64,000 bases of DNA, from the NCBI GenBank assembly GCA_031254105.1, contig JAIRVB010000012.1, positions 62,001 to 126,000 of the forward strand, read 5' to 3'. The notes under the pieces are model-generated. The model had not been told where the DNA came from, made no database searches, and worked only from the letters and a program-made list of their open reading frames with translations. How positions within the stretch are numbered: position 1 is the stretch's first letter; every line of letters starts with the position of its first letter. The position numbers and the translations under genes were made by a program. This DNA comes from Chitinispirillales bacterium (GTDB lineage: Bacteria; Fibrobacterota; Chitinivibrionia; Chitinivibrionales; Chitinispirillaceae). Positions 37,771 through 46,442 of this stretch are shown here, piece after piece.

Positions 37771-38739
37771 TCAGTTCTGAAATTGCGTTGAAATTGCGTT
37801 AATAATACTCTCCACGGAACCTTTATCTATTTTGTTAAAAGCAAACCAGCTTTTACCTAAATCTTTTAAACTTGCCCCAAAGTGATATACTTCTTTCCCG
37901 CCGTCTATTATTAAAAAGCGGTCGTGGCTTTGTGTGAATACCTTAGCCTCAAAACCGCCGTATTGCTCGTTTGCTTTTTTAATGTCTAATTTCAACTGCT
38001 CGGTTATTTTTTTAGTGAGGAGCAGAACAGTAACACCCTTTTTCTTTTTGGATAGATGTATAAGCGTAGTATCATCTATATAGTTATCAATCAAAACAAT
38101 ACTTTGTTTAGCGGAACGGATAATTTTAGAAGTAAGCTCATAGGCGTTAAATACTTGTCCGTTAAAGAAAACGCATTGGGCGGGGATAGTGTCGCCCTCT
38201 AATGCCTTAAAAACCCGTTCAAATTTTTGGTCGGTTTCAAGCTGCTTTTGCTCCAACCCGTCCATTCGCTGAATCAGACCGCTGTGACTTGCTATTATTT
38301 TTCTCATAGCGGCAAAGGCTCGCATAATAGCCACATGCGCTTTTGCCGCCGCTTCGCTTTTTAAAACACCCGATAATCCGGCTACTCCTTGCTCTGTAAA
38401 TACGAAAGGCAGGTATTTACGATGTTTTCCATGCGTACTTTTCAAGGTCACATTTTGTGACCTTAAAGGAATTGTTATCTCATTTTCCGATTCCAAATAT
38501 GCGTCTTCTAATCTTAAGGTCACATTTTGTGACCTTAAGATTTCCCATTCAGATTCAGTTAGTTGAAACATAAAGTCATCTGGAAACCGATCAAGGTTCC
38601 TTTTAACTTGCTGGTTAAGCTGCTTTATTAATACGCCGTACATCTCCGCTAAATCACGGTCAAGCATTACCTGAACGCCGCGGATCGTGAAAATTCGGTT
38701 CTCTATTGGGGTTTGAGATATGATTAGCTCGTTATTCAT
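37771..38739 (-). CDS. ORF6N-domain protein with PLD-like C-terminus (copy 1)
   Basis: 322 residues. Residues 12-110 form the ORF6N domain (PF10543), a KilA-N-associated DNA-binding type domain of phage-like proteins: ENRIFTIRGVQVMLDRDLAE and RFPDDFMFQLTE. A conserved YLPFVFTEQGV segment and a helical linker follow. Residues about 205-322 resemble a single phospholipase-D-like half: VFNAYELTSKIIRSAKQSIV, LIDNYID, and HDRFLIIDG, an HxK-D variant with Arg. The C-terminus is nearly identical to the second copy, while residues about 55-115 differ. Function unknown; DNA binding is inferred. Confidence 0.75.
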   Translation of the reverse strand: MNNELIISQTPIENRIFTIRGVQVMLDRDLAEMYGVLIKQLNQQVKRNLDRFPDDFMFQLTESEWEILRSQNVTLRLEDAYLESENEITIPLRSQNVTLKSTHGKHRKYLPFVFTEQGVAGLSGVLKSEAAAKAHVAIMRAFAAMRKIIASHSGLIQRMDGLEQKQLETDQKFERVFKALEGDTIPAQCVFFNGQVFNAYELTSKIIRSAKQSIVLIDNYIDDTTLIHLSKKKKGVTVLLLTKKITEQLKLDIKKANEQYGGFEAKVFTQSHDRFLIIDGGKEVYHFGASLKDLGKSWFAFNKIDKGSVESIINAISTQFQN

Positions 38740-39297: not shown

Positions 39298-40248
39298 TCA
39301 TAATAGTCCTGAAATCGCGTTAACAATATTCTCCACGGAACCTTTATCTATTTTATTAAAGGCAAACCAGCTTTTACCTAAATCTTTCAAACTTGCCCCG
39401 AAATGATATATTTCTTTGCCGCCATCTATGATTAAAAAGCGGTCATGGCTTTGGGTAAAGAGCTTCACGGTAAAACCGCCGTATTGTTCGTTTGCTTTTT
39501 TAACGTCTAATTTCAGCTGCTCGGTTATTTTTTTAGTGAGGAGCAGAACAGCAACACCTTTTTTCTTTTTGGATAGATGTGTAAGCGTAGTATCATCTAT
39601 ATAGTTATCAATCAAAACAATACTTTGCTTAGCGGAGCGGATAATTTTAGAAGTAAGCTCATAGGCGTTAAATACTTGTCCGTTAAAGAAAACGCATTGA
39701 ACTGGAATAGTGTCACCCTCTAAGGCTTTAAAAACCCGCTCAAATTTTTGGTCGGTTTCGAGTTGCCTTAATTCTAAACCCTCAATTCGTTGAACAAGCC
39801 CTGCATTGGCAGAGATCGTTTTACGCATTGTTACAAATGCCCGCATTATATGAACGCTTATTTCTACGGCAATATCGCTCCTCAACACCGCAGAAAGCAT
39901 AGAAACCCCCTGCTCTGTAAAAGCATAAGGCATCTTTCTTACGCCGCCGTGGGATCTTGAAGTCGCAATTTGCGACTTCAAGATTAGTGATTCAGTTTCA
40001 TTTGGAGCATTTTCAGCATTTAAGGTCGTAATTTGTGACCTAAAGTTCGAGTCGTCAAATTCGTTTTTAGTAAGTTGAAAACAGAAATCCGGTGGAAACC
40101 TGCCAATGTTTCTTTTAACCTGTTCATTTAATCTTTTAACTTCCACACCGTACAACTCCGCTAAATCACGGTCAAGCATTACCTGAACGCCGCGGATCGT
40201 GAAAATTCGGTTCTCTATTGGGGGAGGGGATATTAAGTTGTTACTCAT
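39298..40248 (-). CDS. ORF6N-domain protein with PLD-like C-terminus (copy 2)
   Basis: About 316 residues from ATG 40248 (a TTG at 40260 is also in frame). Same architecture as copy 1: ORF6N core ENRIFTIRGVQVMLDRDLAE, MPYAFTEQGVSMLSAVLRS, then the PLD-like segment LIDNYIDDTTLTHLSKKKKG and HDRFLIIDG. The last ~130 residues are almost identical between copies, but the middle (FRSQITTL, LKSQIATS) is diverged. The gene and its trailing 97-bp repeat look like a tandem duplication in which the recognition part has changed. Function unknown. Confidence 0.75.
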   Translation of the reverse strand: MSNNLISPPPIENRIFTIRGVQVMLDRDLAELYGVEVKRLNEQVKRNIGRFPPDFCFQLTKNEFDDSNFRSQITTLNAENAPNETESLILKSQIATSRSHGGVRKMPYAFTEQGVSMLSAVLRSDIAVEISVHIMRAFVTMRKTISANAGLVQRIEGLELRQLETDQKFERVFKALEGDTIPVQCVFFNGQVFNAYELTSKIIRSAKQSIVLIDNYIDDTTLTHLSKKKKGVAVLLLTKKITEQLKLDVKKANEQYGGFTVKLFTQSHDRFLIIDGGKEIYHFGASLKDLGKSWFAFNKIDKGSVENIVNAISGLL

Positions 40249-40293
40249 TTTTTGTGCCAATATTGTAGTTTTATTTATTCTTTGACTTTTTCT

Positions 40294-42124: not shown

Positions 42125-42529
42125 TTAAGCCTTATGAATATTGTAAGTATCCAAACTTCTCTTTGTTTTTTTATCATTTATCAGAAACTCGCGTATCGTT
42201 TCCTGTTGCGATTTAATAGTTTCCTGTTGCGATTTCAACATGTCCATCTGCGATTTAATAAGTTCCATGAATTCAGATGTATCGCTTTGTGGTTTATTGG
42301 GCTCCATCGGTACATCATAGCCCATCAACCAGTGCTCACTTACGTTTAGGGCGTTGGCCATTTTAAACACCTTGTCGTTACGTGGGTTTGTGTTGCCGTG
42401 TGTTCCCTTTAGATAACCACTAATAAGGCCCTTATTAAAACCAGTGAGCCGGGCTAAGTCAATCGGCCTTATACCCCCTAACTTAATTGCCTCAGTCAAA
42501 CGTTCCGCGAAACTGGATACTTTTTTCAT
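42125..42529 (-). CDS. CI-like XRE-family repressor with coiled-coil tail
   Basis: 134 residues. The N-terminal helix-turn-helix (about 18-75) is of phage-repressor type: RPIDLARLTGFNKGLISGYL then ALNVSEHWLMGYDVP, typical of CI/XRE proteins. The C-terminal third contains a repeated heptad-like unit (KSQQETI twice in a row, encoded by a 21-base direct repeat around 42198-42240) that should form a coiled coil. No peptidase domain is present. It is divergent from a Cro-like gene across a ~300-base regulatory gap. Confidence 0.82.
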   Translation of the reverse strand: MKKVSSFAERLTEAIKLGGIRPIDLARLTGFNKGLISGYLKGTHGNTNPRNDKVFKMANALNVSEHWLMGYDVPMEPNKPQSDTSEFMELIKSQMDMLKSQQETIKSQQETIREFLINDKKTKRSLDTYNIHKA

Positions 42530-44065: not shown

Positions 44066-45280
44066 TCATTTCAACCTTGCCAGCCACCGTACCGCGTTTA
44101 TTTTTTGTATCCCCTCAATCTGCGTATCCGGATCATCATCCAAAGTCAGCAGTAATTTTGGGTGATTGTCTTTTATTTTATTCAGAGGGCGGATTTCACG
44201 GCTCAACGTTTCGCTGTTCCTTACTGTAGCCGCAACTTGAACATATGTCAGTCCTTCGTGGTTTTTTGCCACAAAATCTACCTCACATCCGTCTATTACT
44301 CCAACCGATACCTGATAGTTTCTGCGCAGAAGCTCAAGATAAACTATATTTTCAAGGATATGCCCGATGTCAAATTTGTGTCCTAATAAGATATTTCTCA
44401 GCCCGATGTCAACCACAAAGTATTTCCCCAGAGTCGCGAGGTGCTGCTTCCCTTTAATATCGAATCTTTTTGCGTGATATAAAATCAAGCTGTCCGTGAG
44501 TCCATGCAAATATTTTTCGACAGTTTTATTGTCTATTTTTCTTCCATGCGATCCCATAGTATTTGCTATTTTCGTGCTTGAGATCGGACTTCCGATAGAG
44601 TCAAAAACAAATTTCACTACACTCTCAAGCATCATAACATCCGCGATTTTATGTCTGGCCACAACATCTTTAAGCAAGACGGAACTGTATATGCCGTTAA
44701 GATAATCGGATATCTCTTTTTGGCTGCCATTCAATTGAAGCGCGTATGGAAATGAGCTTTCCTGTATATAGCCGTTAAACATTTTTTGCAAAGACGCGTT
44801 TTTATCTCTATATAGAGAATACCCTTCGCAGTATTCGGAAAAAGAGAATGGGAACATCTTCAGCTCAATATAACGCCCTGAGAGAAGTGTAGCCAGTTCC
44901 CCGGACATAAAATAGGCATTTGAGCCTGTTATATAAAGGTCTGTATTTTTATGGATAAATAAGCTGTCTACCGCTTTTTCAAAATCCTTAACATGTTGGA
45001 TTTCATCGAGGAAAATATAATTTTTTTCGTTTTTTTTAACAAGCTTTTTTACGTGGTCGTAGAGTTTACGGTAGGAGCGTATATGCTCGTATTCCAGATC
45101 TTCAAAATTCATAACAATTATTTGATTTTTTTTAACGCCATTTTTCAGCAAATACTCACGGTACAGATCAAACAGAGTAGATTTTCCGCATCTTCTGACT
45201 CCTGAAACGACTTTAATTATATGCCTGTCTCTGGAACGGATAAGAAAATCCAGGTCTTCTTTTCTGGCTATATTTTCCAC
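44066..45280 (-). CDS. AAA_14/DUF4143 ATPase
   Basis: 404 residues from a GTG start with GGAAAG upstream. N-terminal AAA_14 ATPase: Walker A SGVRRCGKSTL (about 26-36), Walker B NYIFLDEIQHV, sensor LYITGSNAY. C-terminal DUF4143 domain, with the restriction-endonuclease-like EVDFVAK and YVQVAATV. These common single-gene ATPases have no settled function; several are linked to mobile DNA. Here it faces the early-type genes tail to tail, and its upstream region carries five 40-bp-spaced palindromes. Confidence 0.88.
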   Translation of the reverse strand: MENIARKEDLDFLIRSRDRHIIKVVSGVRRCGKSTLFDLYREYLLKNGVKKNQIIVMNFEDLEYEHIRSYRKLYDHVKKLVKKNEKNYIFLDEIQHVKDFEKAVDSLFIHKNTDLYITGSNAYFMSGELATLLSGRYIELKMFPFSFSEYCEGYSLYRDKNASLQKMFNGYIQESSFPYALQLNGSQKEISDYLNGIYSSVLLKDVVARHKIADVMMLESVVKFVFDSIGSPISSTKIANTMGSHGRKIDNKTVEKYLHGLTDSLILYHAKRFDIKGKQHLATLGKYFVVDIGLRNILLGHKFDIGHILENIVYLELLRRNYQVSVGVIDGCEVDFVAKNHEGLTYVQVAATVRNSETLSREIRPLNKIKDNHPKLLLTLDDDPDTQIEGIQKINAVRWLARLK

Positions 45281-45349
45281 GGCGTTCTTTCCTTGTGTTT
45301 TCCTTTTGTTATAGATGAATATAATATTTTAACGAACAGGTAAGTAAAA

Positions 45350-45531
45350 TTTAAGGAACAAATTCCTAAAACAACGCAATCATTTAGCTTTTAAGTATCA
45401 TATTCCTTAAAAATTAATAAAATGTTAAATTTATGGAAATCATTCCTGAAACAATACTTTTTTTCAATGTTTAAGGAATATAATCCATAAATTTTGTTTA
45501 AATGTAGTGTTTCAGGAATATGTTCCCTGAA
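45350..45531. repeat. Five palindromes at exact 40-bp spacing
   Basis: Five ~22-base imperfect palindromes of the form TTTAAGGAA-N4-TTCCTTAAA are centred at 45360.5, 45400.5, 45440.5, 45480.5 and 45520.5. A degenerate sixth may follow at 45560.5. The ~18-base spacers differ from one another. 40 is not a multiple of three, so it is not a coding repeat. The array lies about 70 bases upstream of the ATPase start codon. It could be an operator array, an iteron-like set or a recombination array. Confidence 0.75.
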
Positions 45532-45827
45532 TTGAGCGGAACTGTTAAGTTTCTGAAATGGATTTTTAATTAAGTTAAGATATTGGGGGGATTTGTGGAA
45601 CTTATTCTCAAAATATATTGAAAACTTTCTACACATAATACTATAAATATTAAGTTAAAGACAGGTATGGTCAGAAATTTAAATTCAAGGAAATTTGCTA
45701 CTTGCGTCAGTGTAACGGATTAATTATATTAAACCTTTATCATTAAAATAGGGAAAAAGTTATTCTAACCGGTTAAATGGCAAACTAAGCACTGTCCACC
45801 ATATATTGTTCAGGGGAATAAGGTCTT
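45532..45827. other. AT-rich gap upstream of V-ATPase operon
   Basis: No gene seen. The stretch is rich in TTAAG words and contains a TTGGGGGGA run near 45583. The V-ATPase promoter must lie here; I found no box pair convincing enough to mark. GGGGAATAAGG at about 45814-45824 serves as the first gene's ribosome site. Confidence 0.4.
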
Positions 45828-46442
45828 ATGGAGCAGAAAATCCAGGAACTGACGGAAAAGATTTATCAGGAAGGCGTTGAGAAGGGTAACGAAAAAGCAA
45901 AAGAGATCGTATCTGATGCTGAGAAAAAGGCTGTCGAAGTTGTGAGCGAGGCCAAGTCTCAGGCTGAAAAGATCATTGCCGACGCTCAGAAGCAGGCTGC
46001 CGAACTCAAGCGCAACACAGAGTCTGAACTCAAAAGCAGCGGCTCTCAGGCTGTAGCCGCCATAAAGAGTCAGATTGTAAATCTTATCACAAGCAAAGTG
46101 ATAGATGACGCTTCAAGCAAGGCGCTCTCTGATCCAGCGGTGCTTAAGGACTTTGTCTCACAGGTCATTTCCAACTGGAAAATGGGTGAAGATGAGGCTC
46201 CCGCTCTTGAGGTTATGCTTCCAGCCGCAAAGCAGGAAGAGCTTAACAAAAGTTTTCAGAGCGGCGTAAACGCTGAACTTAAAAACGAACTCAAAGTTTC
46301 GTTTTCAAAGAATATTAAATCCGGCTTCAGTATCGGCCCGGCCGGCGGCGGATACAAGATCAATCTTACAGATGAGGATTTCAGGGAGTTCTTTAAGGAA
46401 TATTTGCGTCCAAGAACACGTACCTATCTTTTTGGCGAGTAA
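45828..46442 (+). CDS. atpE: V-type ATPase subunit E
   Basis: 204 residues. A long N-terminal coiled coil (KIYQEGVEKGNEKAKEIVSD, then QAEKIIADAQKQAAELKR) and a C-terminal globular part give the usual E-subunit layout: the peripheral stalk linking the catalytic head to the membrane motor. It is the first gene of the operon and is followed after six bases by the DUF2764 gene. The symbol follows archaeal/bacterial V-ATPase naming. Confidence 0.85.
   Translation: MEQKIQELTEKIYQEGVEKGNEKAKEIVSDAEKKAVEVVSEAKSQAEKIIADAQKQAAELKRNTESELKSSGSQAVAAIKSQIVNLITSKVIDDASSKALSDPAVLKDFVSQVISNWKMGEDEAPALEVMLPAAKQEELNKSFQSGVNAELKNELKVSFSKNIKSGFSIGPAGGGYKINLTDEDFREFFKEYLRPRTRTYLFGE

Follow-up and report, generated by a model that had tools for sequence, protein, structure and literature searches.

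What binds the five 22-base-pair (bp) palindromes that lie within positions 45350-45531 of our window (the whole 64,000-nucleotide stretch analysed here, from contig JAIRVB010000012.1 of a Chitinispirillales bacterium), and why do they keep a pitch of 40 bp with unlike spacers between them? The array lies upstream of a gene for an AAA_14-DUF4143 ATPase, and comparison with homologues suggests that the palindromes are almost certainly landing sites for this neighbouring ATPase. We put at roughly 80% the probability that the array is an autogenous operator, to which the ATPase would bind as cooperating dimers and so control its own expression. The elements concerned are the following.

45350..45371, no strand: palindrome 1, gene-proximal, TTTAAGGAACAAATTCCTAAAA
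45390..45411, no strand: palindrome 2, TTTAAGTATCATATTCCTTAAA
45430..45451, no strand: palindrome 3, TTTATGGAAATCATTCCTGAAA
45470..45491, no strand: palindrome 4, TTTAAGGAATATAATCCATAAA
45510..45531, no strand: palindrome 5, TTTCAGGAATATGTTCCCTGAA
45592..45613, no strand: possible weak or degraded outlying site, TTTGTGGAACTTATTCTCAAAA
44066..45280, minus strand: AAA_14-DUF4143 ATPase, 404 amino acids, PADLOC family PDC-S01; putative binder and regulated gene

An initial annotation of this DNA had described five palindromes with a 40-base period and unlike spacers; the copies were located exactly at the centres it had named, and the difference between spacers was borne out on inspection. The self-alignment it had proposed gave an identity for 45340-45540 of 0.56 at lag 40, which exceeds the maximum of 0.524 reached over all lags in 500 shuffles, and of 0.59 at lag 80. 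A leave-one-out motif scan placed all five copies within the top five of the 63,979 window positions, and the palindrome pattern had 8 matches in the window versus 0.85 expected. No convincing sixth copy was seen at the in-phase position 45550 (score -7.6); the outlying site, 82 bp past palindrome 5 or about two pitches, had the sixth best score in the window (13.1). Elsewhere in the genome, no further site matched the array motif at 0-1 mismatch, so no regulon is indicated. A DNA search with the array against its own genome and 40 relatives found nothing of similar sequence, as the palindromes are specific to each gene; in relatives the pattern is visible only by protein-anchored comparison.

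That comparison revealed a recurrent arrangement. Across 101 non-redundant regions upstream of homologues, the best direct-repeat match peaked sharply at a lag of 40, with a weak secondary excess near 21, 30 and 51, and the repeat units were palindromic well above column-shuffled controls. The best lag fell at 39-42 in 54 of these 101 upstream regions compared to 4 of 96 downstream regions. Similarly, among 80 named genomes (including Firmicutes, Spirochaetes, Bacteroidales, Negativicutes, Gastranaerophilales and others), it did so in 34/79 upstream versus 3/77 downstream regions. A palindrome-pair model with lags of 30-60 left free was significant for 86 of 180 homologues, 76 of them at a pitch of 39-42 bp and 51 at exactly 40. 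Control gene starts from the same loci carried an array at 39-42 in 1 of 283 cases once regions sharing 25-mers with DUF4143 upstream DNA had been removed; the first, uncleaned control set had shown 12/320, and most of these 12 were probably ATPase arrays viewed from divergent neighbours, because only the one was left after cleaning. In a held-out set of 52 genes from paralogues and viral contigs, 34 passed at 39-42 (P ≤ 0.05). These results show that the array recurs before homologues and not before other genes, as is expected of an autogenous operator; the search before homologous ATPases had been suggested by the initial annotation.

Across phyla, the palindrome sequence differed from gene to gene while the 40-base spacing recurred, which agrees with the earlier suggestion of selection for spacing. 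Paralogues of the ATPase in its own genome likewise carried unlike palindromes at a pitch of 39-41. Most arrays had two or three copies, the long ones being that of this window (five) and that of locus L125 (about seven), and the median distance from the end of the gene-proximal palindrome to the start codon was 21 bp, some arrays overlapping that codon. The homologue in Veillonella parvula SKV38 (L174), for example, has three palindromes at 40 bp. In some homologues (L030, L032, L066 and L101) the pitch was instead ~51-52 bp, near five helical turns. For other DUF4143 subfamilies in the same genome, the scan covered five of nine genes, and none of the five had an upstream 40-bp array.

In the window, the array occupies a 547-bp intergenic region shared by the ATPase gene and a V-type ATPase operon that starts at 45828. 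In the only same-genus genome compared (G001), the V-ATPase E gene has kept the 45 bp immediately ahead of it, and upstream of these there is a deaminase-like gene and no array. A DUF4143 orthologue in a genome of another family (G043), 67% identical, has two palindromes upstream at exactly 40 bp, and the reverse complement of palindrome 4 is identical at 22/22 positions to a palindrome before this orthologue. Because of these two comparisons, we assign the array to the DUF4143 gene on sequence grounds, and the initial annotation's reading of an operator array upstream of this ATPase is strongly supported. The array stands just outside the -35 element of a candidate promoter:

45321..45348, minus strand: candidate promoter of the ATPase gene (TTTACT, 16 bp, TATTAT), adjoining palindrome 1; a consensus match only, not above chance

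A short AACGAACAGGTA motif was also observed near the ATPase gene (window 45331-45342), beside an AT-rich TATAAT-like stretch, and it recurs before a porin-like gene of the same-genus genome (L017, about 1520-1534).

The protein has a predicted winged-helix domain. Both Pfam domains scored above cut-off, and the AlphaFold2 model (mean predicted local distance difference test score 94) contained a winged helix in which a two-stranded wing follows the third helix (251-263); residue 252 is the second residue of that helix. The relevant segments are as follows.

44828..45217, minus strand: AAA_14 ATPase domain, residues 22-151, 118 bits
44228..44671, minus strand: DUF4143 Pfam match, residues 204-351, 58 bits, spanning the winged helix and reaching into the first part of the C-terminal domain
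44492..44530, minus strand: residues 251-263, predicted to be the recognition helix of the winged-helix domain; K252 lies within it
44414..44482, minus strand: predicted wing strands, residues 267-289, overlapping the segment that best predicts operator similarity

A search of the PDB by sequence returned no relative. Structure comparison gave as the closest folds archaeal SSO1545, Cdc6/Orc1 on origin DNA and STAND immune receptors (resistosomes, Avs5). The C-terminal domain has an invariant E310, a near-invariant D335 and an invariant Q348, a layout that resembles a PD-(D/E)XK nuclease minus the usual lysine.

The bases of the palindromes were then compared with the residues of the protein at 76 loci. 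Half-sites shared an outer T-run and a TA-rich centre, while the bases at positions 6-8 were particular to each locus. Operator similarity climbed with protein identity, and when overall identity was controlled, residues 265-301 were the segment that best predicted it. The best single column was 252, with a partial r of 0.46 for operator positions 6-7 (next column, 0.23), a z of 5.6 among 336 columns at matched relatedness, and rank 2 of 365 in held-out pairs. Among 54 representatives, GGA was present in 19 of the 20 with K252, and GG in 1 of the 34 others. Apparent convergences were seen on the tree in separate clades, where R accompanies TTTTTG(T/C)A and NH accompanies GGAA, and in held-out loci, where N accompanies TTC. 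The operator thus appears to covary with the ATPase as an autogenous operator should, within the limits set by few independent changes and by context dependence, and this argues strongly that the ATPase binds its own upstream palindromes. A genome of Dialister sp. (G186, the genome of L162, ~2.1 Mb) holds 14 ATPase homologues at E ≤ 1e-60 and offers a good natural set for such an operator code.

In the mechanism that we propose, the winged-helix domain would recognise each 22-bp palindrome, the ATPase probably acting as a dimer whose two recognition helices each contact one half-site. Neighbouring dimers would cooperate at the fixed 40-bp pitch, nearly four helical turns, and by occupying the array would control, most likely repress, transcription of the ATPase gene. 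Dimerisation and cooperation between sites are proposed features, repression is a moderately firm deduction, and release or switching driven by ATP or phage is speculation, prompted by a structure that resembles those of SSO1545, Cdc6/Orc1 and STAND immune ATPases.

Several results weigh against an autogenous operator of this kind. The per-locus threshold was passed by only 42% of homologues, so in many of them the array is either absent or too degenerate to be recognised. Column 252 fell to rank 28 for pairs at 25-45% identity, and K/not-K switches only five times on the tree, so that the tree test cannot reach significance. As a general rule, 'K252 gives GGA' was rejected: it was right in 2 of 6 cases in distant held-out K clades and holds within one large clade. 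The recognition-helix code therefore looks real but context-dependent. Finally, 40 bp corresponds to 3.8 turns at 10.5 bp/turn; the earlier idea of an operator array on one DNA face is strongly supported as to the operator, while the sites do not lie exactly on one face of relaxed B-DNA.

The alternative that survives best keeps the ATPase as binder and changes the purpose. The ATPase may bind the array mainly to build an active nucleoprotein complex for sensing, activation or defence signalling, its effect on its own gene being secondary or activating. Its closest folds, SSO1545, Cdc6/Orc1, resistosomes and Avs5, belong to families whose members assemble on DNA or signal by oligomerising, the place just outside the candidate -35 element would also suit an activator, and the five copies here and about seven at L125 are more than simple repression needs. 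However, the usual two or three copies close to, or overlapping, the start codon fit repression, and the genome has no other copies to sense. We regard this alternative as possible, though doubtful. A broader proposal is that PDC-S01 proteins act as Orc/STAND-like transcription factors, switched by ATP, which rest on their own array as a cooperating multi-dimer assembly, and that this assembly is altered on phage infection, whether by competing DNA, by a change of nucleotide or by a phage protein, so that expression and defence are both switched on. This is unlikely on present indications; if true, the array would serve as the platform on which an immune sensor rests, and a recognition-helix code would assign target DNA to thousands of PDC-S01 genes from sequence.

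Binding by a separate transcription factor, either a local helix-turn-helix (HTH) protein or a global regulator, is very unlikely. An HTH_3 gene (42125-42529) lies ~2.8 kb from the array, and operators of HTH regulators are often palindromic. However, the array is found with the ATPase gene in unrelated neighbourhoods, paralogues with unlike palindromes within one genome could not all be served by a single global regulator, and the bases of the operator vary together with the recognition helix of the ATPase itself; on the same evidence the initial annotation's suggestion of neighbouring HTH proteins as binders is not supported. Control through RNA, with the palindromes acting as hairpins in a 5' leader by attenuation or protein-RNA contact, is highly improbable: a short hairpin with a loop of four bases is conceivable for each palindrome, and the arrays lie close upstream of the gene, but the arms are imperfect and AT-rich, the exact 40-bp pitch with unlike spacers and the weaker lags near 21, 30 and 51 fit helical phasing of DNA, and the covariation is with a predicted DNA-binding helix. 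That the array instead controls the promoter of the divergent V-type ATPase operon is hardly credible, since its place in the common intergenic region is outweighed by the E-gene upstream 45 bp kept without an array in the same genus and by the recurrence of arrays before DUF4143 genes in unrelated contexts.

Two further classes were rejected. A plasmid iteron or centromere does not suit a site flanked by the DUF4143 ATPase gene on one side and the V-type ATPase operon on the other, with no associated Rep/Par gene, and mobile-element ends or a recombination array do not suit downstream counts at background and a genome without further copies. The iteron, recombination or retron array of the initial annotation has no support, there being no downstream array, no other copies and no replication or recombination gene.

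The autogenous operator, if correct, bears on a large family. The ATPase matches the PADLOC model PDLC04787 (PDC-S01) over its whole length (residues 3-401, E 3.7e-154), which makes it a member of a family of single-gene phage-defence candidates, the defence role being a database assignment. PDC-S01 is reported to rank fourth in frequency among the defences of prokaryotes, most candidates of its type still awaiting validation (PMC12988326); in rumen genomes it is the most frequent single locus (PMC13356809). DUF4143 was mentioned by a single paper in the open-access literature searched. Homologues of the ATPase are also present on viral or prophage contigs of IMG/VR (L223-L259), several with 39-41 bp arrays. 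Two ORF6N-domain genes in the same accessory stretch (window 37771-38739 and 39298-40260) are full-length matches to PADLOC PDC-S05, which suggests a small island of defence candidates; by eye, no 40-bp array was seen upstream of either.

PDC-S01 is thus reported to be among the most abundant candidate defence genes in prokaryotes (PMC12988326), and a family-wide array that can be read from sequence would give a handle on the DNA bound, the residues used and the spacing for each protein. It makes DNA binding, self-regulation and a link to ATP or infection directly testable, and may serve as a marker for annotating functional PDC-S01 members.

Among known systems, the nearest by family is PDC-S01 itself, which the ATPase matches in full; an upstream operator array or a DNA-binding specificity for this family was not found described in the open-access literature searched. 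By structure, the best matches are archaeal Cdc6/Orc1 and SSO1545-type ATPases, which share the ATPase core and winged helix (2fna, 2qby). Cdc6/Orc1 has also been solved on origin DNA, whereas the sites here precede a gene start and not a known origin, and sequence identity to these ATPases is about 10-14%. Cdc6/Orc1 is not known to have a C-terminal DUF4143 domain. In their working, two other systems come close. Type Ia plasmid ParA differs in that it belongs to a partition operon together with ParB and a centromere, whereas the PDC-S01 gene stands alone and its arrays are gene-specific palindromes at a fixed 40-bp pitch. The ATPase fold of ParA is unrelated to that of the AAA_14-DUF4143 ATPase. 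The likeness is that of a DNA-binding ATPase that autoregulates its own operon, several dimers cooperating on the promoter (PMC8465637). RptR, the repressor of a phage-defence island, likewise represses itself through a short series of palindromic repeats in its own promoter, but it is a small dedicated dimeric regulator acting on 6-bp palindromes in 9-bp direct repeats (PMC12255303), so that the binder is not the ATPase itself and the pitch is not 40 bp. ParA and RptR are comparable to the ATPase array in working, not in descent.
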